Positions 15,557 through 62,760 of a stretch of DNA of 64,000 bases are shown in pieces. The first letter of the stretch is position 1. Each line of letters begins with the position of its first letter. Both the position numbers and the translations under genes were made by a program. Origin of the DNA: Nymphaea colorata (Eukaryota > Streptophyta > Magnoliopsida > Nymphaeales > Nymphaeaceae); NCBI RefSeq assembly GCF_008831285.2, contig NC_045138.2, positions 16,711,934 to 16,775,933 on the forward strand, read 5' to 3'. Under the pieces are notes generated by a model, which saw nothing but the letters and a program-made list of their open reading frames with translations, was not told the origin of the DNA and searched no databases.

Positions 15557-18500
15557 ATGGCGGAGGCAAGAACAGAGGGCGGCGGGGGAGACATGAGGCA
15601 GAGGAGGAGATGGAGTTGGCTTGTTGGGGCGTTCATTGCTGTGTTTCTTGCGGGTGTCGTCGCCTCCGGTAACGCTCCCAAGTTCTCTCTCTTTGGTCGC
15701 TTGAGCGAGAATTGCGGTTGCCCGGTACGCCTTTCTTGATACAGATTCTTCTTCTTCTTGTTTTTGTCGGTTTTCTTTGACGTGATTGCAATTCGTTCTG
15801 ATCCTAGCTCTGGTTTTGGAGTTTCTGTTGAATTAGACCGACTGCCCTGTTATCAGGGTCGGGCAGTCACAGAGTCGTGGGAGGGAGAGAATGGGGCTTT
15901 GTCTTTTTTACTTTGAGCCTTTCGATCATGTAATCCTTCTTGTCCTTATTACATCTGTTACCACCTTCACACCCGCAATTCCCTCTTCACAACTTGATCT
16001 GTGACTCTTCGTGATGGGGGTTAACTGGAGGACTTTGAACTGTGAAGCAAGTGTAAGTTCGGAGAGTGATGGAGTATGTGTTCCCCTGCTAGTACATGTT
16101 CCTACTTTTTCTGTTTTAAAAAAATCGTTGCTCATTTGACTAGCGGAGTTATTATTTGGGTTTCCCGTTGAGAATAATGTGAGGTTTGGAGAGGAACACA
16201 ACAATCTGGAAAAAGAAAAGGGGTTCTGGACTTGATAAACTTGTGGCTTATAGTTTCTTCTAACTCGTGGAGGAGTTATGACAAACTATCATAAGTGAAA
16301 GTTGGCTTTCGCTTTTACTTGATTTGTCTTTTTCCAAAAATTTTCACTAGTTGGGATTTGAAAACACTGTGTATTCGTATATTATTTCTTTTCATGAAAA
16401 AGAGCCAGTCTTGGAGAACAGAGTATCTTGAAAGCTGACTGAAATAAGAAGCAAAATATTATAAGAATAATATTGGGGGCATTAACAATCTTCTCCAACG
16501 GGGAATACAAAATGGTAGTAAAGATTAAGTTAAATTGGTAAAGCTTAGCATGTTTCATTTAAATCTTGATGAAGTATGAGTGATCAATGTAGATGAAGGG
16601 AAAACCAGGTAAATCCATATGTATTTGATTTAATAGAAAAGAAGAGAAATCTGACTGCCTTTGTTAAGACGAATCTAAAAGCAGAAACAAGCAAGCGAGT
16701 AGGACATTATTAAATCCTAAAAATTTTATCCAATGGTTTCCAAAACATAAGAACTTATTTAAGACGTTCCAAAAGGCTGCTGTTGGTAAACACATGGATA
16801 GATATAGATAATGCGATATAGGAGGTGAACTGCAAACTGATTTTCTTTCTTCTTCTTCTTCTTCTTTTTTTGTTGACATTGGCTTCTGAAGCTAGTTGGA
16901 ATCTTGGAGTGAATTCTATGTGGACTTAATAGAATTGATTGGTCAATTTGTATTTTCAATGGTGCAGAATGCTCGTAAATATACTGGGATGGTGGAGGAT
17001 TGTTGTTGTGATTATGAGACTGTTGACACACTTAACTCAGAAGTATTGCATCCTATCCTCCAAGAGCTTGTGAAGACACCATTCTTCCGATATTTCAAGG
17101 TTTGATAAAATTTTTTAGGTTATCTAAGTGCAAGTTTATTCATATGCATGATATTGATGAACTTTATACTGCCACTAAGTAAAAAAAAAATCTTCTGTAA
17201 GGATCTATTTCTCCATTTTTGTGTGTGTTTCTTTTTTTTTGTTATGTTTTATGTTTTTTTTTTTCTTTTTTCCCCTTCAAAAGAGGGGTTGGGGCTGGTA
17301 TTCATGTTGCTTTCCTCTCAAAAGATTTCTCTATTATGCTTCAAAAAATTGGAATATGGCAAATATCAAACTCATATAGATGAGGTCTTCCTGGCGCTTG
17401 ATGCTGCAGACAAGTTGGACATGGGCTGTTTGATTGGAGCCAGTTGTTGTGGCATTTTAGGTGATTATTAAACTGTGGACTGTTGCTTTTTCGGGATCTT
17501 AAAGCCTACGTACGTATGGTTGCTGAACATTCCATGTTGTGATCATTGAAAACTTAAAAAATACTTACTCTTATGATCTCAAGGTTGTTAATATGATCGA
17601 GATGTCTACACATGTGCACACAGGGCCATCCAATCTAAATTCATTTTAGCAATTTCACTTGTCTAGAGAATCATTATCTACTGTTATTATATTGTTATTT
17701 TTGGAGGCAACCCATGCTCATCCAAAGGTTGTTGTGCTAGAAACCTACTTCTTACGTTTGGATTTCGAATTTGCTAATTTTTAACTTTGCTGATGTGATC
17801 CATTGGCCCATGTAGTTTCCTTTTAGACTTTCAGGACTGCTATGATGGATTTCAAATGCTTAGTACTGTTTCGCTTTTTATCACACACACTTGAATAAAC
17901 CCATCCCTTAGGTTAGTGGCAAGCATCTGATCATATTCAAGAGTGTATGCAGAGTCTTGCCTCCTCATTGTGTTGTAGGACGTGTCCTTCTTGATTCAGT
18001 TATAGGCTAAGTCACATAGGTACTTCAGTAAGGTCCACGTACCCGTGTCGCCGTACCCGTACCCAAAATGAGTACTTTGACACTTGGGTACCTATAGATC
18101 CAAATTGCTTAATTTTACTTTGATTTAATTTTTACCACCTTACTTTTTATTCTATTCTTTGGATGTGAAAATTCTATTGATGTTCATATTTGACTAGGGG
18201 GCTGCTTGGTTGTCCATATGTTTAAAGTTTTTCATAGGTTTCTTAAACACACTGCTGCAAGAGCTGTTGATATATATTTTCTATGTTATTTATTTGTTTA
18301 TGTTGATGTATATTCTTTATTTTGATACATATTTTATAAGTATTTCTTATTGTTTATATATATATAGCCGTACCCCCGCACTCAAGTTTTTTGAAAATGG
18401 TTAGTACCGGTGTCTGCACCGGCACCCGTACCCGTACCCATGTGACATAGGTTATAGGGGCCATGATAGATTTTGTACAGTAGATGTGTTTTGTCTCCAA

Positions 18501-25067: not shown

Positions 25068-25143
<76 letters not shown>

Positions 25144-28411: not shown

Positions 28412-31400
28412 ATGGCGCACAAGGAGAGTGTTGAAGACTGTAAGACTATTGCTGGTCAGTCAAGTGAGTCCTTAAGTAGTTCAATACAGCACAACATGCA
28501 AGTCACCACTTTTACAGAAGATCTGAAGGATATGACACTCCATTTTCAGATTATACAGTTACCTAGGCAGGTAACTTTCTTGAACATGTTGTCATATCTT
28601 TTGTTATTTTTTTTCTTATATATATTGTCAATAAAAATTTGAGAGATGGTCAAATAAATTGATGTTTGTTTCTTGTCATGATATCGTTCTAGCAATTTGG
28701 GCAAATTGGGTTGCATCTCAATTTTGAGGACCTTTTGCTGTTGAGTATAGCTTTTTGGACTTGGTAATTAAGTTGAAGAAAGGTAGTTGTTAGTAAATTC
28801 TGTATATTCGGGTGATTTTTTTGCAATAAAGACGAAGGATTCCAATTTTCCAAGGTATTGCCATATATGAAGTTTGGTAAGGGAAGCTAATTCAATTTAG
28901 GGCATATATATTTTGGTTGTATCTTATAAAATCTTTGCCTCCATGCAAACCATGTGAACATTCATGGGCTTGAAGAATATTTATTTTCATAAAGTTGTGT
29001 TGAAGAATCACATGGTATTCTATTTTTGTTTATCTTGTCGCTTTCTGTTCTTGTGCCATAGGATCATAAGAACCGCTAAAGGCTTGCAAAATCAGCAGGA
29101 TAAAAAACCAAAAAATTGTGCCTTTATAGTGTTAAATATTGTAAAAGAGGTTATGTTGATTAGCTTTCGTGAGACACCCCTTCATGGGCTACAAATAGGA
29201 ATATTATTCCCTCATATCCCTAATTCCTCTTTATCTTTCTCTCTATCAGCCATTTGACAACATTTGTGGACCGTACCATCAATTTAATGGGTTCCACAAT
29301 AACATTATTCCATGTGATCATTTGCATGGAGGACTCTGATGAGTTATGTGACAGGGGGGTCTTCATTGTGAACGGTGGGCACTTGCTATTGTTCATATCC
29401 TTTCCAATGACAATTCAGAATTGAAACTGTGTCTGTCCTCCTGAAGAATCTTTGGATTCAGAATGGTCAGTACCGGATTTAGAATGGTGAGTACCTTTAA
29501 TTAGTGAAGGAAGGTCCAACCCATAGTTACTAGTAAATTAAAAGGATGCAGGAAGCAGTACATGAAGCAAAGCTGGGAAACAAACATTTTGAAAAATATT
29601 ACACTAGCATAGATGATGGAATTCAGGAAAGTGTTGAAACAAAGGCAGATTAGTGAATTTTTAAAACCTAAAAAAGTGAAGCAGGTTTCCTGGTAACTAA
29701 GAGCTAACTAATTTTAGTTAATGTGCTAGAATTAATGTCCCTTATTAATGTTCACCTAAGTAAGATGGACTCTTCTAAAAGGTTGCCGCACCTGGGTCCT
29801 GTCAGATGCAGCTTGGATGCAGCTCGGGCGTGGCTCAACAACAAACAAATTGCTTTCTTTTCCACTGAATCATTGATAAAAATCATAGTTTGATTTAATT
29901 GTTATTTTTATTACTTATAAACAATTTTGTTGCTTTTATTGTTTGTAGATAATTCTATTATGTTCATAAATATATATAGATATATAAACGTACTTATCCT
30001 CAGAGCGGCTGCACCCATGTGTTTATGAAAAATAAAGCAGCTGCACCTGCACTTGCAACTGAATCACACACCTGTGCGACATAAATGTTCACTTAAATCC
30101 ACCTATGATCCAACACGTCTAATAACCAGTCCCCTGATCTAGCTTGGTTCTCTCTTTCCTCCCACTTCCCCATAACTCACGATGATATTCCCACATATTT
30201 TATACTAAACTTAGATGCAGTAACAATTAGTGTTGGTGGGGTTTGTTAAGCCAGTTTTTGGAAAAAGTAAAAAATGTCAGGATATTTAAAGTCATGTGAC
30301 CTGGCATCATATCAAGAACTGAATGTAGACAGAGAATGACCTTTAAGTTCCTTGGAGAACTTCTGTCAGGTTGGAGTTGAGGTTCTACACATAAAAAGCT
30401 GGATAGATAAGCTATGTAGTTAAAACTGCTACATGGCCATGGTCAGCATATGCCATAGGCCCATAAAAAAGGTGCATTCAGGCGGAACTAACAGATCGAG
30501 CCTGTACAAAGCAGTGAGAAAAAGAAGAAAAAAAAAAGGAAAAGAAATAGAAAAATAAGTGGCAATATGGGACATAGAAACCCTTTCACCTCAACCAACA
30601 CACTAAGAAGAGAAGTTAATTGCTTTTAAAATTACACTCTAATGGGCTGCTTTTATCTGGAATATGATGCATTCTCTTTTTATTGTTGAAATATTTCTTA
30701 GTTGCTTTTAAGATATCGGTTCCTCACGTTCCAAGAAACTTGATGAGGACCTAGACAATTACTAATTCCTTTTTCTCTGAATGGGTAGATTTATGTGTGG
30801 ATTGGCTGCAATTCTTCCAAACTTGGTCATTTATATGCTGCTGCACCAACACGCCCCGTAAGTAAAATGCATATGTGAGGCTTGTGTGTTTTGAGGCTTT
30901 ATACGTGTGTCATGTGTGCAAGCATGTGTATAATTTGTTGATTGATCTGATAAACAGTAATCTGGACTGTTGGACAGTCGGAAAGAAAATGGAGCACCTG
31001 AACAACCATTATGCTCCTCTGGATTCCTAAGTATGTTGTACTTTTGATATGGTTATTGTCTTATTGATGCTATTTTATGTTCTTATCCAGAGAAATGAGG
31101 TAACTGTTGCTTCAATACTAGGTGGGGCAGCTGACAATACTGGTCTTAGTATTTCTCGCCGCCTAGGTACGACCATGAATAAGCTGGTACGATCATGAAT
31201 AAGCTGGTATTTCTACCTCTTCTTGGGGTCATCTAATTCAGTTTGAATGTTCTACTTTCAGTCATAAAAACAGGCCTCAATATAGTGCTGGCTTGCAATA
31301 TTCCCAAGAATTGCCCAATGATTGAGGTTCTCTCTCTTTCTTTCTCTCTTTTGTTGCATGTTTGTGCAAATTCACATGCATGTGTAGTGAATGTCTATAA

Positions 31401-31517
31401 GCTGCGGTTAACACAAACTAGTTCGCAAACTCTGTTGAAAGAACAGCTTGACGGCCTTCTGTGACAACTCTCTCCACATGGCTGAACAAATTACTCATCT
31501 TTTGTGTAAAATGACTG

Positions 31518-32066: not shown

Positions 32067-32805
32067 CTCTGGCACGGGTACGGGGACAGCATTTTTCAAA
32101 ATTTAGGATACGCGGACACGGTGAATATTATATTCAAAAAAATTAAAAATGATAATAAAAAAAAAACATGAGAATCTCATACAAAACATTGTTTTTTCAT
32201 CACCAATCTCATAAGTCATAACTCATAAAGAAAGAAAGTCCTACTACATTAAACATAATAAAAAGATGCAAAAAACATATAATGAACATAAAAATTATGA
32301 AATAAAACAATATAACAAACTGACAGTATAAACATGCAGTCCAGATTTATTTCTGAATAAATTTGCAAGAAAATATTGCACATAGGCAAAATCCCCAAAT
32401 CGGCCAAATCTAACAAACTAACAGTATAAACATGACAGTATAAATTGACAGTATAAAGAATGCAAACACGAAGGCAAAATCCCCAAATCAAACAAAAAAA
32501 AAATATCGCAAATAGCATGGAAGAATAAGATCATTAACCGTCCAATCTTCAAACGAAAATATTTTCAAATCAGCAAGGAAAACCATCGATCGCCGGAGCT
32601 CGCCGTCAATCGCTGGAGCTCGTTGCCATCGCCGTCGCCCGCCATTGCCGAATTGCTGTCGCTGCAAGTCGTCGAAGGTAAAGGGTAAGACGTAAGTCGT
32701 CGAGGGTTTAAACAGAAATCGGGTTATGAAAGGCCGTGTCGGAATGTCGGCATCCGCGTGTCGACACCGGTACTTGACCTAGATTGTCGTGTCCATGTCA
32801 CATAG
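32067..32805. mobile_element. CTAWGTCAC-family TIR element, degenerate copy C
   Basis: The left end CTCTGGCACGGGTACGG and right end CCATGTCACATAG resemble the family termini with a small gap. Flanking bases GCTTTCAG and GTCAGCAG agree at only five of eight positions, so the duplication is decayed or the boundary slightly off. GTGTCG/GACACGG repeats lie inside both ends. Confidence 0.45.
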
Positions 32806-34611: not shown

Positions 34612-35470
34612 CCTATGTCGCTGCGGTACGTCTCTTGGACCCACGTATCGGTATCAGTACGCTGGTAGGCGGTGGTATGTTTGGATCTGGTTTATGGTAG
34701 AAACCAAATGCAAACCAAGTTAATGTCCAAAAAAAATAAAACCTAAAATCGTTTGACGAGTCTCCACGTTCGGCGGTATGCGATGGTACGTTTGGATCTG
34801 GATATTGTTCTTTTTGTTTTTTTCGTTTAACCTTTTCTATTGTTTTGTGAGTTACCTGATTTTAAGATGTTTTCTATACCAATTAGTGATTCTTTGCCGA
34901 TATAACTTGTTTTTTTTTTATCATGGCTCTTCTAAAATAAAGTATATGAGATGACAAACACTACATCTGAGCCAGAAAATGTAATGCGATGTTGGTTTGT
35001 TGTAGATTTTGTTTTGGTGTTTTCACTTTTCTCTTTGAGATTGAGTTGCATGTTTGGGCATTATTTTCATGATTTTCTTCATTGGTAGAAAAAGTTAAAT
35101 GCTATTCGTAGTTGTGGTAATGGGGAACATAAGTATTATAGTCTCTGAAAAGAAAAGGGAAAAAAGTAAAAAGTAAATAGTAGATACTTTTACTTCTTCT
35201 GGCGGTTGATTTGAATTCCTTGAATTTTTATTTTTAATTGGAAGAAAGCACTAATTCCACCACATCTTAAAAGAAAATTGGCTATTCATCTCTTTTCAAA
35301 ACCAGTTTGCCAAAATTAGCAAAACCAGTTTATAATTTTTTTAATTAAAAAATTAACTTTATTGCATAAAATTTACACCATACACGTGTCATGAATTTCA
35401 AAAACGCTGTACCAATATTTATTTTCTCGTACCCGTACCAATACTTATACCAGTACCCAAGTGACATAGC
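34612..35470. mobile_element. CTAWGTCAC-family TIR element, degenerate copy D
   Basis: The left end CTATGTCGCTGCGGTACG and right end GTACCCAAGTGACATAG are family-like and inverted, with GGTACG and CGTACC hexamers inside. I found no matching 8-bp flanks, so this may be a composite or internally rearranged copy. It is longer than most members in the window. Confidence 0.4.
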
Positions 35471-46400: not shown

Positions 46401-49400
46401 AGATCTCAACCTTACCACAAGGACTTGCTTCATTCATGCTTCAAAGGCGATAAACTGAAATACCAGGCTTAAGTGCGCATAATGTCAGTCTTTCTCAAAA
46501 TGTATGTCGCACAGATACCTGTGATCTGCCAATTACACCTGTCGGTATGTGGGTACGACTGTATTTTAAAACTTAATTTTATATTTTTCAAGTTTATATT
46601 TTTTTTATTTAAGTTTGATTTTTCCTTTATTTTTTATTTCCCTTCTACCTAGATTCTATGTTTTCTTCTCATTTTTCTTTAATTTTGAGAATTTTTGGAT
46701 ATATTTGCATATTCTGTCGTACCCCGTAACTAGATTTTCTAAAAGCGCCAGACCTGGACCTGCTTTGCCGTACCTATACCCATACCCATGTGTCTTAGCT
46801 CAAAATCTTCAAGATGTGGCTTTTTTCAAATTTTCCTTTCTTTTTTATTTCCCTTCTACCTAGATTCTATGTTTTCTTCTCATTTTTCTTTCATTTTGAG
46901 AATTTTTGGATATATTTGCATACTCTGTCATACCCCGTAACTAGATTTTCTAAAATCGCCAGACCTGGACCTGCTTTGCCGTACCTGTACCCATACCCAT
47001 GTGTCTTAGCTCAAAATCTTCAAGATGTGGCTTTTTTCAAATTTTCCTTTCTTTTTTATTTCCCTTCTACCTAGATTCTATGTTTTCTTCTCATTTTTCT
47101 TTCATTTTGAGAATTTTTGGATATATTTGCATACTTTGTCGTACCCCGTAACTAGATTTTCTAAAATCGCCAGACCTGGACCTGCTTTGCCGTACCTGTA
47201 CCCATACCCATGTGTCTTAGCTCAAAATCTTCAAGATGTGGCTTTTCTCAAGTCATTTCCAAGTAATTCTAGATTCAATAGTTGAATGCTAAAAATGCTG
47301 TATCTGAGTCTTCCTGCTTGAGATGTGACATTTAAACATTAAATCTGGAAAAATCACCTGCCTTTTAAGCTTTTTTTCTTTTTGACTCTTAAGAGTGTTA
47401 TATACCGTGATGTAAATAGTGGTTTGGGTCAGACATTATATTAATTCATTATGGATGAGGTAGGTACAAGCGGATTCCCAGTCTGTGGATATATGTAATA
47501 AACCATTTAGAAACAAGTGTCTGTGCATTAAACATCAAATTTAAGAGTTGAATAGGGCTTGGCACCATTTGCAATAACACCTCTATTTAAATTTTAAACC
47601 AAATGACAGCATTGATTTGATAGATTGAAGTTTGCCCCATAAGCTGCTTTCGTTCAAAACCTGAAAAGATCCAGAACAAGGTAGTGGCATAGGTATTTTT
47701 GCAATCTATTTCCTACAAGTATAGTAGAGATAAGAATACTCTAATCTTGCATATAAATGATCAACTACGTTCTTTTCCTCTTAAAGAAAACACACATGTT
47801 GGACCTTAGGTAGGAACCTTCACAGGTTGCATGTTTGGTTGGACTTCAACTTCCTTGTGTTTGATCCAATTGTATTTGTTGTAGTCATGTTCTGACTCAA
47901 GATCAGGCTTGGAATGAAATTTTGAAAACCAATTCCAGGTCTAAGTACCTTAAGGTTCAAGTTTCTACATGTAGAATAGAGTAATCAGGTTGACTTTCTA
48001 TCAGTCTTTGTAGTTGGATTCAAAACTAATATGGATGCAATTAGTAGTTGATCTTATTTGTTTACTATAGCCCCCTAATTAATAATGAGTCAGTCGGATA
48101 TTGGATGAACCTGATCCAGTTGGCAGCCCCAACCCTAAGCATGCTTTGATACCATTTGTAACACCCATTCCAATACCATCTTTTGTACCTGGTTTGGTGA
48201 ACTCAAACCTATGTCTGCAGCTTCTTTTGATTGAGCATCAAAGGTTAACCTACATGTAAGACAGCAGTTAGATTCATATATGTATGCCTATGGATATCAT
48301 TCAGTACAGGGTATTTTCAAGTCATTGTCACATATATGTTATGAACAAATCCCTGTTAAGAATGCGCTCCTTTGCCTGTTGGGATCTAAATTCAAAACTG
48401 AAGATTGTTTCTTATCATATATGAACACTTGTCTTCAAGAGACGCGAGCATCCAGTCTGGCAGATCCCAACATTTGTAGCTTGCTTAAGTTTGGCTCCCA
48501 AAAGGAGTACAAACCAGAACCTAAGGCAGTTTATGTGTGGAAATTCATGGAGACCACTAGATCTTGCAGATGTGGAATTATTTCTGTTGTTCTCATGCAC
48601 AAGTTATTACTGATTAACTCTTCTTGAGACTTCATGCTCTTGCAGACCTTAAGTCTAGGAATTGGATATGCCTCTGTCTTGGATTTGAGGAGAACCATCC
48701 TAAAATGTTTTGGTGGGTCTGACCAGTGATATGGCTTGCTTTCATTTAACACCCAGAAGGACTTGAAATTAGAATGGAAGATAACTGTTAGGTTTTAAGT
48801 ACATGAGGATATCATCTATTGGGAATTTGCTAGATATGTGAAATTACTGCTAAGTCGTCTTCATATACAAAATGTTACACTTACATCCTCGGTCCTTTTT
48901 GAATATGCTTTCAATTACATATAGTGGCAGTAACTTTTACATATTTGATGTATCGTTTGAACTTTGAATTATTGACATAGTAATGATCTTTCGAATTTTG
49001 TATGTGGAACAAGTAAACTATTATCTCTGAAACTCGTCTATGAGACTAGGCAAGTTAGATGTCTTAGGAAATACTTGCACAATCTGCTCCATTCATTCAT
49101 TATCCATGGAGCAACTTCTCTGGAAAGTTGTCTCTAAAAACTAAAAAGCATATATAGCCCATTTTCAATAAAATGCTTCTCGGTTGTAATAATAACAAGA
49201 ATGGTAAATACTAATATTAGCCTGAAATTTTTTTTTTATTTGTGTTCTCTTCATTCGATGCTTTCAGCTTGGTTAATTTCTTTCTGAACTCATTTGTTGC
49301 CATTGTTGACTTTGGCCATCGTTTACTCTTGAATAGAACATCTCCACTTGCTTCCCATGATCATGCGAAAACCTTCCTTTCTCTTTTGTGTAAGAATCTT

Positions 49401-52400: not shown

Positions 52401-55400
52401 CCGTCTGCAACAAGACTTCGAACAAAAGATTGACTACAATGAGCTAACCGACCATGCCAAATGGATGGTTTATTATACTCTGTGACATTGACTTCACTAT
52501 GACTTGGAAAACATGAATCGGAAGGGTGAGATTTTGACATCTGTGGAGCTCCTTCAAGGACATACATATCTCCTTTGCGAGTGCCCTCAGCGAATGTCTT
52601 CTTGGTTCGAGCATCCTTGACATAAACAGAAGAGGGTGTGAATTCAACAGAGGATTGAGTATCATCAATAAGCTTGGACACTGAAATAATATTTTTCTTG
52701 ACACTTGGAACAACAAGAACATTCTTTAATGGAATCGAAGAAGAGCCCATAGAAATTTGTACATTTCCAATGTGTGATATTGTGTGATGGGAACCATCTC
52801 CCGTGACAACTGAGCCTTTATCTAAATAAGGGAGAGCACTAGAGAGATTACCTGCGTCACCAGTAACATGGGCTGCTGCTCCAGAGTCCACATACCATTC
52901 TCCTTGCTCGTTTTGTTTCAAATGAAGCTTAGACAGGGCTGTCATGAGGAGTTGTTGTACGTCTGCTGAAACATTAGATCCAGATGATGATGAAGCTGAC
53001 CCTGCTGCTGCCTTGTTCTCACGTCTAATCTGATTATTTTTGTTCTGCGGGTTGTGCCAACATTCTGACTTTACATGCCCCCTCTTGTTGCAATAGAAAC
53101 AAGTCGGAACCCTTCTAGATGTGGCAGATGTAGTATTCATGCCCTGTGGTGTTGGGAGAATCCCTCTTCCCATTCCTGCCTGAGGAATCCATGTACGAGT
53201 GCGATTCCCTTGCAATGCATGTGTCCCTGTGATCAGTACATTGTGACTGTTGGAAGGAATCAAATTCTGTCGCTGAACACGACTAGCTTCGTGTTGGAAT
53301 AACTTAGCCTTGAGATCTTCGAAAGATGGAAGAATAGGTAGGACTTCCAAGGCTGTGCAAAAAAATATCAAAATCTGTTCCCAGTCCACTCAAGGCTTGT
53401 TGCACTTTGTCCTTGTCGCTGACGGGATGTCCAATGGCAGCAAGTTGATCACTTACACTTTTAATTTCATTCAAATACTCCAAAACAGTACGTGTCCCAC
53501 GCTTGATGTCCTGAAATTGCCTTCTTAACTGCAGAAAACGTGCTTCGGATACTTGAGAATACGTGGTGGCAAGGGTAGACCACAACTCTAGGGCTGTTAA
53601 ATCATCATCAATACCTCCTAATACTTCCTCTGACAAAGTAGAAGTAATATAGGCAACAAGAGACTGGTCGTGAGCCAGCCAAGCTTCATACTCAGGATTA
53701 TTTTCAGTAATGGTTTCATATTCAAATTTGATTTCACTCATAGCCGCAGCCCCAGCAGCTTGATCTCCCACTACGGTTTTCTTCACTTCACGATCAATAT
53801 ACATAGGAGGTGCTGGAGTGGTCCCATCGATATGCCCGTAGAGTCTATGACTTTTGATAAAAGGGACTATTTGACGTTTCCAAGTCAAATAGTTACTATG
53901 ATTCAGCTTTTGTGAAATAAGTTGGGAGAGAAAACTGGAAGATAGAAGAGAGGGGGTCGGCTGATCCATAATTGATTTAGGGCAACGACAAAAATTAGGG
54001 CAAAACGATGAGAAGATTAGGGCACAACGATTAGGGCAAATCAATTAGGGCAAATCACGCAAGATTTAGGGCAGAAACTGAAAAGAGGGATGATCACGGC
54101 AGAAAAGAAAGAATTTAGGGCAGATTAGGGGCTAATCACATCAAACTGAAATCACTCACCGGAGGACGATGCAACCTGGCTCTGATACCATGTAAGAATC
54201 TTCACAAAGTACTCGTCTCTCCGTATGCAAAACAGATATGTTGAGAAGAGAGGATGAAAGAAGACGATGGAGGAAAGGGAGCAGCCGGCTTAACACAGCC
54301 CTGCGTTCCTTAATCTTTAATAAAAGAATAACCCTAATAGGTTACAACAGATTTGTACATAAAAGGATAAAAAATTACAAGAGAGCCACCGCCTAGTAAC
54401 TTTAGGCGTGTGGATATAAGGAGAATGGATCGGGTCTGAACAGACCCGATCCCCATACGCTAACATTTTGAACTTTCAGTCATATAGCAGTCACTTCGTA
54501 TATCTTGTCTTCTCCATTTACATGTTGCATGTGTGGTTGAATTTTCTTTCTTTTATCTGTTGAATGAACAAGTGCATATCTCTCTCTCTCTCTCTCTCTC
54601 CTTCTTTCTTTCATATCAAATGGGTGGTTTTGTGTTGGGGGATGAGGTAAAAAATTTGCTTTATTATATGTGTGTAATTTCTCCAATTTGTACAGGAAGA
54701 AAATGAAGCCACTTCTCCCTGTGCTCGCTTGGTTATACCATTTAAGAAAGATAGCAAGGATGCTTCTAACAACATGCTTCAAATTCAAGGTAAAGAGAGT
54801 ATTGTTGTGATTTTTGTTGTGGATTGGTCATTTACTTACAAGTAGCCATCTTCCAAGGACCTCAACAGAGTCAATTATGTGAAAATTGAAAGCCAACGTT
54901 TTGTTAAGACTGATTTTTGGAAATGACTCTAGAAATGGCTTAAAAAAGCTATGTATTGTTGGAAACCCTCGTCTGACTGCATCCTATACACACACGTGTG
55001 TGCACACAAAGAGAGAGAGAGACAACTCATTAGGTCACCAACTATGTCACATGGGTACGCTAGATTTGCTTTGGGCACGTACATTAGTATGTGGGTTCAT
55101 CCACGTGGCTATGTGCCATGCCAATTGGTATGTATTGTTGGAAACTCTCGTCTGTCTACATCCTATACACACACGTGTGTGCACACAAAGAGAGAGAGAG
55201 AGACAACTTATTAGGTCACCAACTATGTCACATGGGTACGCTAGATTTGCTTTGGGTGCATCAGTATGTGGGTTCATCCACGTGGCTATGTGCCATGCCA
55301 ATTGGGTGCAGCTTAGATGGGGTTTGGGTTAGACCCAATCTAAACCGTAAAATGTAAGTTTCTTAAACTTTAAGAAAAGAAAAATCTTTGCCCACCATCT

Positions 55401-58400
55401 ATTCGGAGAACTGAAAGAAACGAAAGCAAGAGAGAGAGAGAGAAGTGAAACTTCCCCTATTTGCGTTGGCGCTTATACTAATACCCATGTGACAGGTCAC
55501 CAATGAAAATTGGCACTGGCCAGCGTATGCTTCCTACAAGTCCTGACCTATGGCACAATGAGAGAGAGAGAGAGGAACCTTGAAATGGGTGTAAGATTTT
55601 GAGATATTACGCCAAACCACTGGATGGAATCCTTTGTAGATGCGAGAGAAGAAGAGGAATTGACTGCACGTGCAATAGAGAGAGAGAAAAGAGAAGAGGG
55701 CAGCAACTGTGGCCCTTCCTCCTTGTCATTAATATAACCTAATGTATGTTACAAGTAAATATAGAAAACAAGTATTTACAAGTATGCCACCGCCCATTAT
55801 GTTTGGGTGTATGGGCAAGATGGATCGGGTCTAGGCAGACCTGATCCAATTCGTACAATCTTAACAGCCCCCCTCAAGTTGTGGATGAGGTTTGATCATG
55901 CACAACTTGTTCTTCAATTCCTATAAATGGTGCCCTGTGAGTCCCTTGGTAAAAAGATTAGTTACTTGTTAAGACGTGACTATATAAGTAGGAACAATCT
56001 CAGTTTCCTCGACCTTTTGACGAATGAAGTGTTGATCAATCTCTATATGTTTAGTGCGATTATGTAGAACAGGATTGAAAGCAATCTTGACCGCACTTTG
56101 GTTGTCACAGAATAAAGATGACTGAGCAATGAGAAGGGAAAGTTCCCCAAGCAGATGACGTAACCATGAGGCTTCAACTGTGCCTACAACCATTGCCCTA
56201 TATTCTGCCTCAGTGCTGGATCTGGCAACTGCACGCTGTTTCCTGTTATTCCAACAAATAAGATTGGAATCAAGGAAGAGACAATAACCTGAAATTGATC
56301 GTCTATCGTTTGGATGACCTGCCCAATCTGCATCAGTGTAGGTGGAAATGTTATGTCCATTCAAAATAATTGACTGTCTTGTGTAAACGAGTCCATCCCC
56401 AAGAGTAGCCTTAAGGTAACGAAAAATGTGTTTGGTAGCATCTATATGCCCTTCTGTGGGTGCATGCATAAACTGAGATACTTGATTCATTGCATACACT
56501 ATGTCTGGACGTGTAAAGGTGAGATATTGTAGCATGCCAGCTATACTCTGATAGAAACTAGGATTTGAGTATGCATCGCTCCCATCAGAGGCATTCAATT
56601 TTGTGTTGAGAACACTATGAGTATTTATGGGCTTGCAATTTGTTATACCTGCTCTATCCATAATATCAAGAGTATATTTATGCTGCGTAAGAGTTAATGT
56701 GTCACCGTTTCTATCAAGCTCAACACCTAAGAATACCGTAGTTCGCCGAGATCCTTCATCTTGAATTCTTGTTTCAATACCTCCTTAACATGAGATATAT
56801 GACATGGGGGTTGTTCCATGTATACCTCTTCAATTAGAAAGCCATGAAAGAAAACATTTTTAACATCCTACTGATATAAAGTCCATTCATGTGAGATTGC
56901 AAGAGAGATGATAACACGGATCGTTCTCATCTTGATGATTGGACTCAAAGTTTCATCGTAATCTTCTCCATACTGTTGAGTGAAGCCTCTAGTCACAAGA
57001 CGAGCCCTATATCTGTCAATGCTGCCATCGGGTTTGTACTTGAGTTTGGAAACCCATTTTGAGCCCGTTACATTCTTACCATTTGGACGAGGAACAATCT
57101 CCCAAGCTTGACATTCATTCAAGGCAGCCATTTCTTCGTTCATGGCCTCCACCCAATATTTGCTTTTGCATGCATGCTCATAGCATTTTGGCTTCACCTT
57201 TTTGCTCAATTCTGTCATTAAAAGTTGAAAAATCCAAAGAGAAATTATCATAACTTACCCATCTATCAATAGGGTGTCGCACACATTCCGATCTACGTGG
57301 ACAAGCAATGACAGTTTCTGGAGTAGTTGTTGGAACTGATCGTCGAGTATACACTACTCCTGAAAATCGAGTAGGTGAAGACATGTTGTTGGTCTGAGTA
57401 GATGAAGGTGTGCTGTCCAACTGAGTATCTGTGGCTATCTCAAACTCATCAATAATTCTGTCACTTTGTGCATGGAATGTATCAGCCCCTTGGCCTAATA
57501 TTTCAGCATTCAGCCATGAATCATATACATCATGTCTTACATTAAGTGTTTCCTGTGGCTCCTTTAAATCCTTCAACATGAGCTCATCAAAAACAACATG
57601 TCGTGAAATATACACGTTCCCAGTCTTTGGATTGTAACATCTATAGCCCTTATAATTTTTTGCATAACCCATAAATTTGCACATAACAACTCGATCTTGA
57701 AACTTATTTCTCAAGGAAACATCAACATGTACATAAGACACACCAAAAAACACGTAGTTCATTATAATTTGGTTGTTCTTGGTGTAAAATAAAGAAAGGG
57801 GATTTTCCTTCAAGTAGAGATAATGACAGTCGATTAATGACATGAACAGCAGTATGAAAAGCTTCAGTCGACAAATTCATGGGCAGATTTGTGTCATGCA
57901 TCATACTTAGTGCACTTTCAACTATGTGTCTATGCTTTCTTTCAGCAATGTCATTCTGTTGTGGTGTATGTGGACAGAAAATTTGTCTAGTGATCCCATG
58001 ATTTAGTAAAATACTCAGTAAAATCATTTGAAATAAACTCACCACCACCATCACATTGGAAATGCACGATATTGTAAGAGTATTTGTTTTGGACCAAGAC
58101 ATGGAATTGAGTGAACAAGCAGAAAACCTCTTATTTTCTTTTCATGAAATGAATCCAAGTGTAACAAGAATAAGAATCAATAAAAACAACATAATATCTA
58201 TTCTCGGAAGAAGAAGAAATAGGAGCAGACCCCCAAACAACAGAATATATGGAATCAAATAATTTTGAAGGTCGCTTATTTATTGATTGAAAAGGGAGAC
58301 CATGGCTCTTACAAATATGACAGCTTGAGCACATGCTAGACTCATTTACTGGACTTAGACTAGGCTTTTGCAACAAGACTTTGAATGAAAGACCGACTAC

Positions 58401-61400
58401 AATGTGCTAAATGACCATGCCAAATGAATGGCTTATCATACTTTGCTTTGACTTCACTATGACTGGAAAAAGATGAATATGAAAGACAAGACTTGGACAC
58501 CTTTGGAGCTTCTTCAATGACGTACATGTCTCCTTTACGAACATCCTCAACGAATGTCTTCTGGGTTCGAGCATCCTTATAAACAGAAGCAGGAGTAAAC
58601 TCAACAGAGGAATGAGTATCATCAATAAGCTTTGACACAGAAATGATATTTTTCTTGACGTTTGGAACAACATAAACATTCTTTAAAGGTATGGAGGAAT
58701 AAGCCATGGATATGTGTGTATTTTCAATATGTGATATTTTGTGATGGGAACCATCTCCTGTGACAACTGAGCCTTTAGCTAAATAAGGGAGAGCACTAGA
58801 AAGCTTACCTGCGTCACCGGTCACATGGGCTGTAGCACCAAAATCCACATACCATTCCTTCTTCATTTTGCTTAATATTGACTTTAGACAAGGTTGTCAT
58901 TAAAATCTATTGCACATCAGTAGGAATGATTGATGTTGCAATCGTGTTCGATACAACTGACCATGCTGCCTTATTGTCATGCCTGACTTGTTTTCCTTTG
59001 TTTTGAGGGTTATGCCAACATTCTGACTTCACATGACCTCTCTTATTGCAATAAAAGCAAGTAGGTATCCTTCTTGGTATATTTGCCTGAGCATTTGTAT
59101 TTGGCGTTGGAAGAATACTTCTCCCCATGTCTGCTTGTGAGTTCCAAACCCTAGGATGGCTTCCTTGCAAAGCATAGGTCCCAATGACTAACACATTGTG
59201 ACTGCCAGAATATATGACTTGCTTCATGTTGAATCAATTTTGCTTTCAGGTCTTCAAAAGAGGGAAGAACATGTAATACCTCTAAAGCAGTGCAGAAAAC
59301 ATTAAAATATGACCCCAAACCACTCAAAGCCTATTTTTGATTTCATGTATGTATTCCAAAACTAAACGTGTTCCTCGCTTGATATCCTGAAATTGCCTTT
59401 TGAGTTGTAGAAATCTTGCTTCTGATACTTGAGAATAAGTGGTAGTGAGTACATTCCACAACTCCAATACTGAAAGATCATCATCAACGCCCACCAGAAT
59501 TTGTTCTGACAATGTGGAGGTGATATATGCAACAAGGGATTGATCATGTGCCATCCACGTTTCATATTCAGGATTAATTTCAGCAACGGTTTCTTGAATT
59601 TTCCCTGCAACATTCTTCACCTCTTGCATGATCCAATCGGGTGGCGCAGGTGTGGTGCCATTGAGATGCCCATATAGACAGTGACTCTTGATGAAAGGGA
59701 CTATTTGACGTTTTCAAGTCAAATCGTTGGTGTGATTCAGCTTTTGGGAGATGAATTGAGAGAGAAAATTGGATGACAATATGGAAGAATTGCGGTTGTG
59801 ATGGTCCATGGTTGATTTTGAGGCTAAACGTATAAGGATGAAGGTTTACGGTAGGTACGAGGGTAGACGATAGCAACCAGAAAAACATGGAATTTTAGAT
59901 TAGGGCAGACGTCAAAAACAAGGGCAGAGATCACGGATTTGAGGGTTAGGTCAAAGATTTTAGGGTTAGGGTAGAAAAACAGTAATTAGGGTAGGGCAGA
60001 GATCAAGGATTTTAGGGTTAGGGCAGAAAAACAGAAATTAGGGCAGAGATTTTAGGGTTAGGGCAGAAAACAGAAATTAGGGCAGAGAATGAGACTTCTT
60101 ACCGGACAATCTCAGTGGCAACAACCTTGCTCTGATACCATGTAAGATTTTGAGATATTACGCCAAACCACTGGATGGAATCCTTCGTAGACGCGAGAGA
60201 AGAAGAGGAGGTGACTGCACGTGCAATAGAGAGAGAGAAAAGAAAAGAGGGCAGCAACCGTGGCCCTTCCTCCTTGTCATTAATATAACCTAATGTATGT
60301 TACAAGTAAATGCAGAAACAACAAGTATTTACAAGTATGCCACCACCCATTATGTTTGGGTGTATGGGCAAGAAGGATCGGGTCTAGGCAGACCTGATCC
60401 AATTCGTACAATCTTAACAATGGGAGGAAGAGGAACCTCGATTGCCATGGCGGTCTTGGAATGAGAGAGATCAGGGTTTGAGAGCCTTGAAGGTTCTCAA
60501 AATCCAGATTTAAGACCTTTGGATCTGAGATCCAAGCCCAGGGTTATCAAACATGGCAGAAGAGTGAGGTCATGACATAATGAGGAGTTCGTTAGGGTAC
60601 TTTTAGACTAAGTCACCATGGTGTGGCAAAAATGGACCCGCACCCGCGTCGACGCGATGTGGGTGCGGGTGCGATCGAGATTCGCACCCAAACCGCACCT
60701 GCTCAAGTGGTCGCACCCAAACCGCACTGGTAAGGATACAGGGCAGTAGGGAGAGAGAGAGTGTGGGGGAAAGGGCGGTAGGGAGAGGAGAGGGAGTGCG
60801 GGAGAGAGAGAGTGTGGGGGAAAGGGCGGTAGGGAGAGGAGAGGGAGTGCGGGAGAGAGAGAGCGTGGGGGAAAGGGCAGTAGGGAGAGGAGAGGGAGTG
60901 CGGGAGAGAGAGAGTGTGGGGGAAAGGGCGGTAGGGAGAGGAAAGGGAGTGCGGGAGAGAGGGCATGAGAGCTTGCCTGCGGGAGTGAAAGAGTGGATAG
61001 AAATGGGAAACAGACAGAGAGTTCAAGACAGGAAGAGGGATGACTCGAAAGCTCGGGACAGAGGGAGAGGGACGACACGCTTTGGGGGAACAAGGAGAGC
61101 AAGGGTGAGGGGGACTGAAGGCGAGACAAAGAGAAGGCGAGCGAGGAGCGTGGGAGGAAGAGAGTGCAGACAGAGAAGGCTCGGGCGAGACAGGGTGAGA
61201 AGGAAGGGGGAAACAAATGGGAGAGAAAAAAAAACCCTAGTTAGCCTAATCGCCGCTGCACTGCCACTGCCGCTGCTGCTCCTTCCTCCACCTTTCTTCT
61301 TCTCTGCATCGAATGCTCACCTGCATAATGAAAGGGCAACGAAAAGGGAGACAAAGAGGAAGAGGAATGAGAGGGCAACGAAAAGGGAAAAGGGAGACAA

Positions 61401-62760
61401 AGAGGAAGAGGAATGAGAGGCCAACGAAAAGGGAAAAGGGAGACAAAGAGGAAGAGGAATGAGAGGCCAACGAAAAGGGAAAAGGGAGACAAAGAGGAAG
61501 AGGAGAAGGGGAACCCATGTCGGGTCCTGGCCCCCTATCGGATATTACTTGTCCTTGCCCGATCCGGATCAGATATTGAGTCAAATATAAACTCCCTTGG
61601 ATCAAATGTTACTTATTAAAGCAGATATCTAAGATTGGATATTTGTCTGAATCTCAAATGATATTAATATATATTAAATATAATGTTTATAATTTTTGTC
61701 ATGTATATTTATATATATTATAATAATAAATTAATAATAATAATAAATACCGTCGCCGCACCGCCGCACCTAAATCTTTTGAGATGTGCCGCACCAGCAC
61801 TCGCACCCGCACCTCGCACCTAGGTGACATAGCTTTTAGATTGTCATCGGAAATCCAATAGTGTAAGGTCATTTTTTTTCACTCTAAGTTTTAATCACTT
61901 ATTTGATTTGGCATAAGTTTCCTTCAGGCCAGATTGCTAAGGGTTTGTTTAAGTTGATGCTTTTTGACTTTTATGTTTAGTTTATGGAAAAATTTGTTAT
62001 TTATTCGATAGATCACTATGAACATTGTCTACGGTTGGTGTGATGATTTTTTCTTTTGGTTGCAGGTGTTGACGGGCTAGAGGAAGATGAAAAAAAGAAA
62101 CAGCCTTGCACGATGAACATGACTGTTTCTTTGAGCCCTTCAGCTAAAATTGGGCCCCTCCATCAAATGCTCCAGGATAATCTTCGGAAGGTGGAGCCAT
62201 TAGAGCAAGCAAGCTACACTAAAGAAAATGTTGAAGAAAAACTTCTAGGAAAAGAAGGTGCACAAGCGAGATTCAAGGATGGTAAAATTGGTCATGATGT
62301 GGCTATCCCAACAGCTGGCCAGAAGATGGAGATAATTGACCATGATAAATTAATTCTACCAAAGAAACGAGTGAGAAATGGTATTTCAGAAATACCACAA
62401 GATCATACAACTAGTAAATCTAGTGTCATTGTTGGTCATCCTATTTTTCATGAAGAAAGAAGAGAAGCCAATGATGTTCCAGAAAAGGGTTCCTGTACAA
62501 AAGACAATTCTGATTTTAAAGATCTCTCAAGTAGATCTACAATATGGAGGACAGAAGAACTCAATCTTACAATATATCCTGACACTGTGGAGTCATCTAT
62601 GTTGGCTTTAGAGGAGCTCATCAACAAAATAAAATGGGTAAACCAAGTTTTGCAGTTTGGGGTGGAGAAAGCAAGCTCAAAGAAAGCATCTTGGCAATTT
62701 TTGGATAGCATTGATCTTTCTTGCTGGAATGATGCTTCCAGTAGGCAAGTACTTATATAA
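43407..62760 (+). CDS. Agenet (plant Tudor-like) domain protein, six exons over 19 kb
   Basis: Agenet domains belong to the Royal/Tudor superfamily and are linked to chromatin or RNA-related protein reading; the exact role here is unknown. Exons: 43375-43502 (ATG at 43407), 43701-43770, 44014-44270, 45927-46043, 54696-54789 and 62066-62760; all junctions are GT-AG and in phase, giving 442 residues from that ATG. The first Agenet unit spans about residues 9-85 (IGQLAESKSFMKGYRGAWFR, MEYFDFPDE, MIRPCFP). The second spans about 110-170 (WKVGDHVDWWYEGCYWTARI, then SYEALCKDLRPSLDWSPDDG). The last exon is hydrophilic and ends with a LEELINKIKWVNQVLQFG helix found at the C-terminus of this family. 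The open frame of exon 1 continues ten codons before the ATG, so an upstream exon may exist. Introns 4 (8.65 kb) and 5 (7.28 kb) are enlarged by transposons. Confidence 0.85.
44600..45926. other. Agenet intron 3, mostly featureless
   Basis: I see no gene or complete element. At 45326-45402 a 39-bp unit containing CCCTCTAAGATGGACCG is tandemly repeated twice with near identity. Open frames here are not supported. Confidence 0.5.
46502..46798. mobile_element. CTAWGTCAC-family TIR element, copy E (Agenet intron 4)
   Basis: A 297-bp segment begins GTATGTCGCACAGATACC and ends CATACCCATGTGTCTTAG. The ends are weakly inverted, but both flanks carry exact 8-bp CTCAAAAT (46494-46501 and 46799-46806). 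CCATACCC-type hexamers precede the right end. Its right half forms part of the 211-bp tandem repeat that follows. Confidence 0.55.
46630..47262. repeat. 211-bp tandem triplication including a TIR-element end
   Basis: The phrase CCCTTCTACCTAGATTC recurs at 46640, 46851 and 47062, a period of exactly 211. The unit covers the right half of TIR element copy E, its flanking CTCAAAAT and about 30 bases beyond. Copies 2 and 3 are almost identical; copy 1 differs at a handful of positions. The open frames through it (86 codons) exist only because the T-rich unit lacks stops. Confidence 0.9.
47263..49383. other. Agenet intron 4, unique part
   Basis: AT-rich intron sequence between the tandem repeat and the copia insertion. 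I see no exon, RNA gene or repeat that I can support; the open frame at 48280-48627 has no recognisable domain. Confidence 0.45.
49389..49663 (-). repeat. 3' LTR of Copia-1
   Basis: 275 bp; on the element's strand it begins TGTTAGCG and ends GATTCTTACA. It matches the 5' LTR without a difference that I can see. A perfect hairpin, GGATCGGGTCTG with its complement and a 2-nt loop, lies at 49625-49650, and a smaller CGCCTA/TAGGCG hairpin lies beside it. Confidence 0.95.
49658..53389 (-). CDS. Copia-1 Gag C-terminus and Pol polyprotein
   Basis: A single 1,243-codon frame, open from 53389 (first codon is not ATG). It carries a CCHC zinc knuckle CFYCNKRGHVKSEC (97-110) and protease active site VDSGAAAHVTG (about 167). 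A GAG-pre-integrase WHGRLAHCS and integrase follow, with D-D-E marks in SDVWGP, QCDGGGEF and HTPQQNGIAERKH. Next come reverse transcriptase (QLDVKNAFLHG, catalytic YVDD in LLIYVDDIVITG) and RNase H (YTDADWAGD, STEAEYRAM, LFTKGL). No stop interrupts it. The stop codon lies four bases into the 3' LTR, so the polypurine tract is translated. All catalytic motifs look intact. Confidence 0.95.
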   Translation of the reverse strand: MDWEQILIFFCTALEVLPILPSFEDLKAKLFQHEASRVQRQNLIPSNSHNVLITGTHALQGNRTRTWIPQAGMGRGILPTPQGMNTTSATSRRVPTCFYCNKRGHVKSECWHNPQNKNNQIRRENKAAAGSASSSSGSNVSADVQQLLMTALSKLHLKQNEQGEWYVDSGAAAHVTGDAGNLSSALPYLDKGSVVTGDGSHHTISHIGNVQISMGSSSIPLKNVLVVPSVKKNIISVSKLIDDTQSSVEFTPSSVYVKDARTKKTFAEGTRKGDMYVLEGAPQMSKSHPSDSCFPSHSEVNVTEYNKPSIWHGRLAHCSQSFVRSLVADGLLDKSSLSSVSESSMCSSCHICKSHALPFQLINKRAPKVFDTIYSDVWGPAPVPSSSGSRYYVIFVDSYSRYTWIHFMKHKSEVFRLFTQFHALVQNKYSSNIVHFQCDGGGEFISNEFTEYLLDNGITRQISCPHTPQQNGIAERKHRHIVESALSMMHETDLPMTLWTEAFHTAVHVINRLPLALLDGKSPFFLLHQEQPRYEELRVFGCVCYVHVDVSLRNKFQDRAVLCRFIGYAENYKGYRCYNPKTGRVHISRHVVFDENRLQDPKATFVTLKDKNEVYDTWLHAEILRQGAAMLTEHNEKVVNEPETSVSSSLSSTTSLDSVPSSSQPSEPPMLNRFSGLVYSRRSVPTAVPRQSQRVRHPIDRWVSYNSFSLDFQLFMTEVSKRVEPTSYHNASKEKCWVEAMNEEMAALHECQTWQIVPRPVDKNVVGSKWVYKLKYKPDGSIDRYKARLVARGFTQQYGEDYDETFSPVIKMGTIRVIISLAVSYGWPLYQLDVKNAFLHGILKEEVYMEQPPGYTTHDSQKWVCKLHKSLYGLKQASRSWFDRFSHHIQQIGFLRSSLDHSLFIYRTGEATTWLLIYVDDIVITGNSSSHISYVKGMLKQEFKMKDLGELRYFLGVELDRTNDSLTLTQHKYTLDVLDRAGMTNCKPITTPSVLNTKLTASDGTAAYFNPTFYRSIVGMLQYLTFTRPDIVYAVNQISQFMHAPTEGHMDAAKRILRYLKATLGDGLVYTKCSNVSLGHSIYTYTDADWAGDPDDRRSVSGFCLFLDSNLICWSSKKQRAVARSSTEAEYRAMAAGTAEASWLRHLLGELSLPIVRSSLLCDNQSAIKIAFNPILHNRTKHIEIDQHFIRQKVEEAEILPTYISTNEQIADLFTKGLTGQHFWDLKNKLCMIKSHAQLEGSC
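49664..49674 (-). other. Polypurine tract of Copia-1
   Basis: The element strand reads TTGAGGGGAGC directly before the 3' LTR, a typical plus-strand primer tract. It lies inside the end of the Pol frame. Confidence 0.8.
53304..53969 (-). CDS. Copia-1 Gag (N-terminal part)
   Basis: Capsid part of the copia polyprotein. The ATG at 53969 (MDQPTPS) is preferred, because the open frame upstream to 54044 begins at a TTG. The conserved Gag features LNHSNYLTWKRQ and the helical LQLRRQFQDIKRG are present. The frame ends at 53304 shortly after a T-run at about 53358-53364 where the reading frame shifts. The remainder of Gag, including the zinc knuckle, is in the Pol frame. Copia Gag and Pol are normally one frame, so this is a mutation, a sequencing error or, less likely, a programmed shift. 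Confidence 0.85.
   Translation of the reverse strand: MDQPTPSLLSSSFLSQLISQKLNHSNYLTWKRQIVPFIKSHRLYGHIDGTTPAPPMYIDREVKKTVVGDQAAGAAAMSEIKFEYETITENNPEYEAWLAHDQSLVAYITSTLSEEVLGGIDDDLTALELWSTLATTYSQVSEARFLQLRRQFQDIKRGTRTVLEYLNEIKSVSDQLAAIGHPVSDKDKVQQALSGLGTDFDIFLHSLGSPTYSSIFRRSQG
53975..54130 (-). repeat. TTAGGGCA-rich leader of Copia-1
   Basis: Between the primer site and Gag, the plus strand repeats TTAGGGCA about nine times with irregular spacers. The same motif fills the leader of Copia-2. It resembles the plant telomere unit TTTAGGG but is not a regular array. Confidence 0.7.
54173..54190 (-). other. Primer binding site of Copia-1
   Basis: Directly inside the 5' LTR the element strand reads TGGTATCAGAGCCAGGTT. 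TGGTATCAGAGC is complementary to the 3' end of plant initiator-Met tRNA, the usual primer for copia elements. Confidence 0.9.
54191..54465 (-). repeat. 5' LTR of Copia-1
   Basis: 275 bp, same sequence as 49389-49663. As the element reads leftwards, this right-hand copy is the 5' LTR and should hold the promoter. Confidence 0.95.
54578..54602. repeat. TC microsatellite before Agenet exon 5
   Basis: A run of TC dinucleotides about 95 bases upstream of the exon 5 acceptor, in Agenet intron 4. Confidence 0.8.
54950..55330. repeat. 181-bp tandem duplication in Agenet intron 5
   Basis: A unit running from TATTGTTGGAAA to CATGCCAATTGG is repeated with a period of 181. Each unit contains a CA/GT palindromic stretch (CACACACGTGTGTGCACAC), a GA run, the 8-bp site GTCACCAA and the left end of TIR element copy F. 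Confidence 0.85.
55223..55495. mobile_element. CTAWGTCAC-family TIR element, copy F (Agenet intron 5)
   Basis: The left end CTATGTCACATGGGTACG and right end CTAATACCCATGTGACAG are strongly inverted. Flanks are exact 8-bp GTCACCAA at 55215-55222 and 55496-55503. The duplicated left end at 55042, also preceded by GTCACCAA (55034-55041), shows that the 181-bp duplication arose after insertion. Confidence 0.8.
55590..55866 (-). repeat. 3' LTR of Copia-2
   Basis: 277 bp, element strand begins TGTTAAGATTG. Differences from the partner LTR are mostly transitions, as expected from decay of methylated cytosines. Confidence 0.93.
55969..59850 (-). pseudogene. Copia-2 gag-pol, broken
   Basis: Homologous to the Copia-1 polyprotein but split among many frames: Gag at about 59810-59240, zinc knuckle CFYCNKRGHVKSECW in 59227-58907, protease in 58866-58360, integrase in 58376-57722, RT in 57843-56868 and RNase H in 56661-55969. 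The protease active site reads VDFGATAH, so the usual Ser after the catalytic Asp is replaced by Phe. About 230 bases that hold YVDD in Copia-1 are missing at about 56800, where GDM-type sequence after the primer-grip side joins directly. The element cannot make a working RT. Confidence 0.9.
59930..60095 (-). repeat. TTTAGGG-containing minisatellite in Copia-2 leader
   Basis: Imperfect units of about 40 bases containing TTTTAGGGTTAGGGCAG and ACAGAAATTAGGGCAGAG are repeated three to four times. This is an expansion of the TTAGGGCA leader seen in Copia-1. Confidence 0.8.
60141..60419 (-). repeat. 5' LTR of Copia-2
   Basis: 279 bp, partner of 55590-55866. It carries a weaker version of the Copia-1 LTR hairpin, GGATCGGGTCT paired with AGACCTGATCC. 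Confidence 0.93.
60755..60962. repeat. 51-bp minisatellite, four copies
   Basis: GTGTGGGGGAAAGGGCGGTA recurs at 60761, 60812, 60863 (one change) and 60914, a period of 51. Being a multiple of three, it gives a 17-residue repeat in open frames. Confidence 0.9.
61335..61505. repeat. 46-bp minisatellite, about four copies
   Basis: AGACAAAGAGGAAGAGGA recurs at 61349, 61395, 61441 and 61487, a period of 46, separated by GGCAACGAAAAGGGAAAAGG. Confidence 0.9.

Follow-up and report, generated by a model that had tools for sequence, protein, structure and literature searches.

The window, the whole stretch of 64,000 nucleotides analysed here, carries short gene-less elements that are almost certainly hAT copies related to transposase-coding elements, with arrays of short words inside their ends that pair with the transposase subfamilies. 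We propose that these copies are non-autonomous (Ds-like or MITE-like) members of one plant hAT lineage. In this lineage, elements of 3.5-4.8 kb with ends of the same type encode a transposase with a DUF659 region, the C-terminal dimerisation domain of hAT proteins and a putative BED-like finger. In the proposed mechanism the transposase would recognise the terminal repeat and, most likely via the finger, the short-repeat array just inside it. It would excise the element and reinsert it at nTnnnnAn-like sites through cuts staggered by 8 bp, and it would act on elements without the gene as well. At least three subfamilies pair a transposase with an array: A with GCACC, B with GTATC and some GTGTC, and C with GTACC.

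Seven copies in the window

The preliminary description listed five copies with exact and mutually different 8-bp flanking repeats, and direct reading of the window finds all five in place. The 444-bp element c1 (18007..18450, plus strand) has GTACCC arrays at both ends and lies between two copies of the target-site duplication GTTATAGG (17999..18006 and 18451..18458). The 329-bp element c2 (29756..30084, plus strand) has GCACC/GCAGC words and is flanked by ATGTTCAC (29748..29755 and 30085..30092). The 297-bp element c3 (46502..46798, plus strand) has few GTACC words, and its duplication CTCAAAAT is found at 46494..46501 on the left and first at 46799..46806 on the right, recurring after 47009 and 47220. 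The 273-bp element c4 (55223..55495, plus strand) has the 3’ end GTGACAG, without TA, and the duplication GTCACCAA (55215..55222 and 55496..55503). The largest of the five, c5 (1225 bp; 60608..61832, plus strand), has subfamily A ends with GCACCC arrays, a filler of GA-rich tandem repeats, and the duplication CTTTTAGA (60600..60607 and 61833..61840). Both c3 and c4 show tandem duplications that span an element end, the target-site duplication and the flank. At c3 a 211-bp unit consisting of the 3’ part, the duplication and the right flank is present in three copies (46620..47251), and at c4 a unit of about 179 bp consisting of the left flank, the duplication and the 5’ end is present in two (54950..55305).

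Two further copies had been described as degenerate. The first, c6 (32067..32805, minus strand), reads as a reversed, internally deleted derivative of the subfamily B element L049 with an eroded left end, so that its relation to a transposase-coding element is real, but neither c6 nor c7 (34613..35469, plus strand; an end pair with GTACC words and a 3’ end weakly like subfamily C) has a target-site duplication: an 8-bp repeat partner was sought at and near both ends of each, and none was found. The ends proposed for the family, CTAWGTCAC, hold exactly at both ends in c1 and c5 only; in c2 and c3 they are off by 1-2 bases per end. Terminal inverted repeats span 16-17 bp in c1, c5 and c7, where 2-3 positions mismatch; in c4 they consist of 13 identical bp past its 2-base gap, and they are poorer in c2, c3 and c6; short terminal inverted repeats of 5-27 bp are given for hAT elements (PMC3517528).

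We scanned the window for pairs of CTAWGTCAC ends with at most 2 mismatches each, 60-2500 bp apart and flanked by an exact 8-bp repeat. The scan gives 6 pairs, which amount to 4 loci, compared to 0 in 25 dinucleotide shuffles. The tandem repetition of its 3’ end makes c3 count three times, and c4 is missed because its 3’ end GTGACAG is without TA. Allowing 3 mismatches, there are 7 pairs compared to 0.88 on average in the shuffles (maximum 4); since shuffles at that setting give pairs too, looser scans are less telling. 3’ ends that read TGACAG in place of TGACATAG recur, at window position 55495 (c4) and in the loci L012 and L018, and are perhaps a subgroup rather than a chance loss of TA.

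Inside the ends the copies have little in common. Among the seven we find no common interior sequence at a blastn E of 1e-3. Of 10 ORFs within or overlapping c5, c6 and c7 none has a Pfam match at E 0.1 that would indicate a transposase, and an Rfam search of the window has no match at gathering score. The short words just inside the ends are concentrated there: of 145 GYACC/GGTRC words in the window, 39 fall inside the terminal 100 bp of the copies (14 end windows), where 3.2 are expected, and the interiors of the seven copies hold two. The elements c2, c3 and c4 have weak arrays. The suggestion that the hexamers of a copy vary in concert at its two ends agrees with permutation analysis, in which the ends of the same copy are more alike in their array words than ends of different copies. 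Across nine settings, P lies between 0.001 and 0.065 when all seven copies are used and between 0.008 and 0.05 for the five copies with duplications, base composition being uncontrolled in both.

The window includes other features. A Copia retrotransposon on the minus strand (49389-54465) has a 1243-aa frame and end repeats of 275 bp that are 100% identical, indicating a recent insertion, and a related element (55590-60419) has end repeats that are 95.7% identical over 279 aligned bases. An ERO1 gene (Pfam PF04137) is represented by three exons in 19736-24371, and c1 ends about 1.3 kb upstream of the first ERO1 exon found. A protein phosphatase 2C exon identified by Pfam lies on the minus strand at 6297-6644, with more exons, read by eye, to about 9239.

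Transposase-coding elements and their arrays

A long transposase-coding copy with family-type ends was looked for and found, and then others. The first, L043, comes from a random 10-kb stretch of the genome; it is a 4652-bp element (positions 2079-6730 of that stretch) with c5-like, subfamily A ends and exact copies of CATAAAAG on both sides. Compared to Pfam, its open frames match DUF659 (E 4e-44) and Dimer_Tnp_hAT (PF05699, E 5.9e-16), and the last of them matches the Hermes transposase with a phmmer E of about 4e-10. A second element, L049 (1876-5328), has an uninterrupted 670-aa transposase frame that matches DUF659 (E 2.9e-47), Dimer_Tnp_hAT (PF05699, E 3.8e-13) and Hermes (phmmer E 3e-6); in the alignment to Hermes, a SER of the query stands opposite SER of Hermes. 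L043 and L049 are the two transposases on which the Pfam and Hermes comparisons were made.

A search of the genome (407.8 Mb in 783 contigs) with the middle frame of L043 gives at least 109 matches. The uninterrupted 670-aa frame is present in 11 of the 109 matches listed, and five of those 11 score identically, which suggests recent copying. Ends were fetched for nine further transposase genes, picked mainly for long open frames. Nine of the 10 transposase-coding elements examined have an 8-bp duplication, exact in eight cases and with one mismatch in the other; for the gene at C1:18677928 no end pair is found in the fetched pieces. The nine elements with ends are 3453-4785 bp long. Three close relatives of L043 have the exact duplications GCCGAAAT, GCAGGAAC and ATGGGGAT. 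The L049 duplication, ATGTATAT, is also exact, but it lies inside an AT-rich repeat where other frames also fit. Four more distant elements have GTTATATA/GCTATATA (the one-mismatch case), GAGCGAAA, AGTAGAAG and GTTTTTAG. A genome search with the Pfam Dimer_Tnp_hAT domain gives at least 150 matches above cut-off (all 150 that were scored, of 1113 candidates), and most of these will be other hATs. In one locus, G000 C9:23387830-23392690, two transposase matches, and likewise their exact B-type ends, lie 2732 bp apart; this spacing is shorter than one L049 length, which makes a partial tandem copy likely, as at c3 and c4.

The transposases fall into three subfamilies, A, B and C, with 83-94% identity within and 52-60% between subfamilies, for a set of eight proteins in which L043 is represented by a partial frame. 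A pattern CxxC...H...C, read by eye as a finger, is seen in six of the eight aligned proteins; its start is absent in C_C11_L060, and in L043 it is outside the frame used. For the Pfam BED domain, L049 has no match, and the best match of the first L043 open frame is another family at E 0.083. Also by eye, the finger regions differ among the A, B and C transposases.

The arrays differ along the same lines. In the terminal 120 bp, each end of the four subfamily A elements holds 2-8 words of the GCACC type and no more than one GTACC. The two subfamily B elements have 5-11 GTATC-type words, 0-4 GTGTC, 0-3 GTACC and no GCACC. The three subfamily C elements have 3-9 GTACC, 0-2 GCACC and 0-2 GTATC. 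In each of the three subfamilies the leading word is identical at both ends. Matching 5’ to 3’ arrays across the three subfamilies, the true assignment comes out top among the 6 permutations, which is as high as it could stand but a weak result with so few; the C 5’ array is as close to the B 3’ array (0.38) as to its own (0.36).

The association extends to the larger set of transposases. Defining an A transposase as one of 74% identity or more, an exact A-type 3’ end is found 1.25-1.42 kb downstream of 13 of the 42 A transposases and none of the 63 others, with a displaced control of 0.035. Conversely, 17 of the 63 non-A transposases, and none of the 42 A transposases, have an exact B-type end 1.02-1.09 kb downstream, with a control of 0.03. 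These counts cover 105 of the 109 listed matches, after dropping two on C270 and two at C4:27497261-27498220, and use the 57 exact A ends listed (at least 218 in total with up to one mismatch) and 87 exact B ends (106 in all). We give no P value for the pairing of ends and transposases, because related copies are not independent. The observation that the array type goes with the transposase subfamily is supported both within the elements and downstream of the genes.

Several window copies can be related to these elements. Both ends of c5 match subfamily A (blastn E 2e-26 and 1e-10). Both ends of c6 match L049 of subfamily B (E 5e-39 and 4e-15), as does its interior, in reversed orientation, and its left end is without about 36 bp of the L049 end. 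The 3’ end of c1 matches C (E 1e-17) and also the B and A ends (E 8e-8 and 4e-6), and its 5’ end resembles the L072-L077 elements, which are relatives of 330-380 bp elsewhere in the genome. We take c5 by homology to derive from A, c6 from B and c1 from C. The assignment of c7 to C is weak, resting on its 3’ end (E 2e-5). For c2, c3 and c4 there is no clear transposase partner among the elements fetched; positions 91-133 of c4 are similar to the 5’ portion of a single B element (E 4e-9). In a k-mer comparison of the array words alone, c5 is the sole copy clearly placed.

By analogy with Ac and Hermes, the arrays may be transposase binding sites, and the gene-less copies may have been excised by a transposase and moved in trans. 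Given the subfamily pairing of transposase and array, each gene-less copy would probably depend on the transposase that matches its array. The alternative that survives best is that arrays vary by drift or slippage in each copy, and that the likeness between the two ends of a copy comes from base composition or descent and not from recognition by a transposase. The leading word common to both ends in all three subfamilies, the way array type tracks transposase type, and the near confinement of the words of the window copies to the vicinity of the ends all argue against this alternative, which draws strength from the small sample of seven copies, with permutation values that range by setting and leave composition uncontrolled, and from the fact that ends within one subfamily are alike by descent. 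We consider drift unlikely, while giving it a good deal more weight than any other alternative.

Ends, target sites and hAT membership

The preliminary description would have fallen had the genome lacked consistent ends and 8-bp duplications, and it has both. Allowing no more than one mismatch, we count the 17-base end CTAWGTCACATGGGTAC 1236 + 1196 = 2432 times genome-wide compared to 1 for the reversed control. Among 100 listed genome places we picked 6 pairs of exact 17-base ends, and 3 of the 6 preselected pairs are flanked by an exact 8-bp repeat: L073 by CTTTTGGC, L074 by ACTGCCAT and L075 by AATACCAC. Of the remaining three, L072 has the repeat of its neighbour, on the right side only, and the other two have 3 and 5 mismatches. 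L072 and L073 (G000 C1:2223961-2227744) are 3.4 kb apart, and the right flank of L072 being the 8-bp duplication of L073 suggests a copied or recombined segment.

The c2 sequence has at least 41 genome matches, c2 included (40 of 86 candidates scored). We fetched 20 c2-like loci, inspected in one pass over all 20 and another over 15 of the 20, and in four of them (L009, L016, L018 and L027) the end-like sequence is bordered by a duplication that is exact or has a single mismatch. L009 is 94% identical to c2 and has the same site as c2, and is probably a copied segment of the c2 locus. L027 is a c2-like element flanked by exact copies of GAGTTGGG. A 380-bp family member is nested inside it, and the repeats flanking that member, ATGCACCC/GTGAACCT, are degenerate, differing at 3 of 8 bases. 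Aligning the L027 flanks to three relatives with one nested repeat removed compared to both kept gives 82.0/78.0, 98.5/97.5 and 101.0/96.5, values that slightly and weakly favour the state with one repeat removed.

We also scanned a random sample of 20 stretches of 10 kb for end pairs with duplications. The strict exact scan finds 1 pair (control 0.0), allowing one mismatch finds 9 (control 3.5), and the loosest ends give 17 (control 11.2), so that the strict pairs alone are informative, since the looser controls also yield pairs. Three elements are recognised in this sample, L030, L035 (duplication with one mismatch, by eye) and L043, and by that measure the window seems richer in these elements than the genome average. 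In viral and prokaryote contigs the exact end pattern CTAWGTCACAYGGGTACNGGTA has 0 matches, as expected for a plant repeat.

For members of the hAT Ac group in general, target sites follow nTnnnnAn. We collected 22 duplications, from the 5 window copies, 9 transposase elements and 8 others, three of them with one mismatch. Position 2 is T in 13 and position 7 is A in 15 (binomial P 9.8e-6). Using exact duplications only and excluding L049, T2 is found in 9/18 and A7 in 13/18 (P 2e-4). The L027 duplication GAGTTGGG fits neither position and is counted among the 22. Left out of these statistics are L009, which shares the site of c2 and 94% of its sequence, L010 and L012 (2 mismatches each), the nested L027 insertion (3 mismatches), L072, and L076-L078. 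The central TA of the Buster target rule, nnnTAnnn (PMC3517528), is not enriched in the 22 (T4 plus A5, 13/44). The duplications follow nTnnnnAn, the target rule of Hermes (PMC10368747, PMC2803484), and not the Buster rule.

The proposal that the copies are hAT elements is borne out, because the transposase-coding elements share the ends and the 8-bp repeats; those elements carry hAT domains, and the duplications fit nTnnnnAn. The accompanying remark that the terminal bases are unusual is right for part of the lineage. The terminal bases of hAT elements are given as YARNG, that is [T/C]A[A/G]NG, and for plants as [T/C]AGNGNNG (PMC6027215). The window copies and most other ends read CTAWG, with T at position 2, and depart from that rule, but the CAATG found at the 5’ ends of all four A elements, and at the 3’ end of the C element C11:2786, fits it. 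Subfamily A elements start with CAATG and finish with CTATG. The terminal CT is a variant of the hAT end.

That CTAWG is not the usual YARNG, and that MITEs of both Mutator and hAT type are widespread in plants (PMC12550479), could be taken to mean that the copies belong to another superfamily with duplications of 8-9 bp (Mutator-like, P or Merlin) and that their likeness to hAT is superficial; we find this very improbable, given that ends of the same type and duplications occur on elements encoding the hAT dimerisation domain with a Hermes match, and that the duplications are of 8 bp and nTnnnnAn-like. Least credible of all is a chance origin, in which each window copy would be an accidental pairing of two end-like words next to simple repeats. 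The missing duplications of c6 and c7 and the shuffle pairs of the 3-mismatch scan might suggest this; the lack of any pair in the 25 shuffles when 2 mismatches are allowed, the genome-wide excess of ends, and the homology of c1, c2, c5 and c6 to elements elsewhere contradict it.

Beyond hAT membership, we put forward more tentatively, at somewhat less than even confidence, that this is one DUF659-hAT lineage with at least three subfamilies in which the finger and both arrays have changed together, and that the gene-less copies are mobilisation groups sorted by array. If so, the lineage would offer a natural set of protein-DNA specificities matched to one another, and would raise the question of how two arrays separated by 3-5 kb within an element come to change over together. 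The three natural transposase/array pairs offer material for reading the recognition code of the finger. Short anonymous plant repeats are tied here to a transposase source, and the range of hAT ends widens to include CTAWG beside CAATG within one lineage.

Comparison with known systems

Among the papers listed in a search of mainly open-access literature, using the end sequences and hAT, MITE and domain words, none is seen to name the family. The excerpts of PMC8227079 and PMC12550479 contain no such end. A matching short string appears in PMC3116503 and PMC2956540. We regard the family as probably new within a known hAT kind; it may already carry a name in a repeat library. A Solanaceae repeat begins CTATGTTGCTCGGACTCTTC. 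By likeness of letters it resembles the c2-like 5’ end CTAAGTAACAYGGACTCTTCAAAAAGG, which provides a lead. The first 18 bases of CTATGTTGCTCGGACTCTTC are contained in a tobacco 21-nt small RNA, AGCTATGTTGCTCGGACTCTC (PMC3237444).

Hermes, from the house fly, has subterminal repeats that are read by BED fingers (PMC10368747). The elements described here also have subterminal repeats, with a putative finger read by eye, and share with Hermes the nTnnnnAn target rule and the sequence match in the dimerisation domain. They differ in that Hermes is an insect element with other ends and another repeat word, and the alignment is confined to the C-terminal part. The plant hAT MITEs BniHAT-1 and BniHAT-2 are alike by description, being short, gene-less and present in many copies (PMC7385995).

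Another close comparison is with maize Ac/Ds. The Ac transposase binds subterminal AAACGG hexamers, and Ac has an 11-bp inverted repeat (PMC3260210). By reading, the ends here are CTAWGTCAC and not the Ac 11-bp repeat, and the leading array words are unlike AAACGG. The lineage differs from Ac/Ds also in its DUF659-containing transposase and in that its arrays are of several types, each paired with a transposase subfamily. The maize elements Ds-l3 and Ds-l4 keep the Ac ends and hexamers, are otherwise different, and where tested do not respond to Ac (PMC3260210), which indicates that possession of the ends and arrays may not be enough for an element to be mobilised. As in Ac/Ds (Ds1, Ds-l4), there are 8-bp duplications, short inverted ends and hexamer arrays near the ends, and as in Ds1 and Ds-l4, the gene-less copies are heterogeneous, with little in common beyond the ends. 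In structure, the family is of the Ds1/Ds-l4 kind, in which common ends and arrays enclose a variable filler (PMC3260210).
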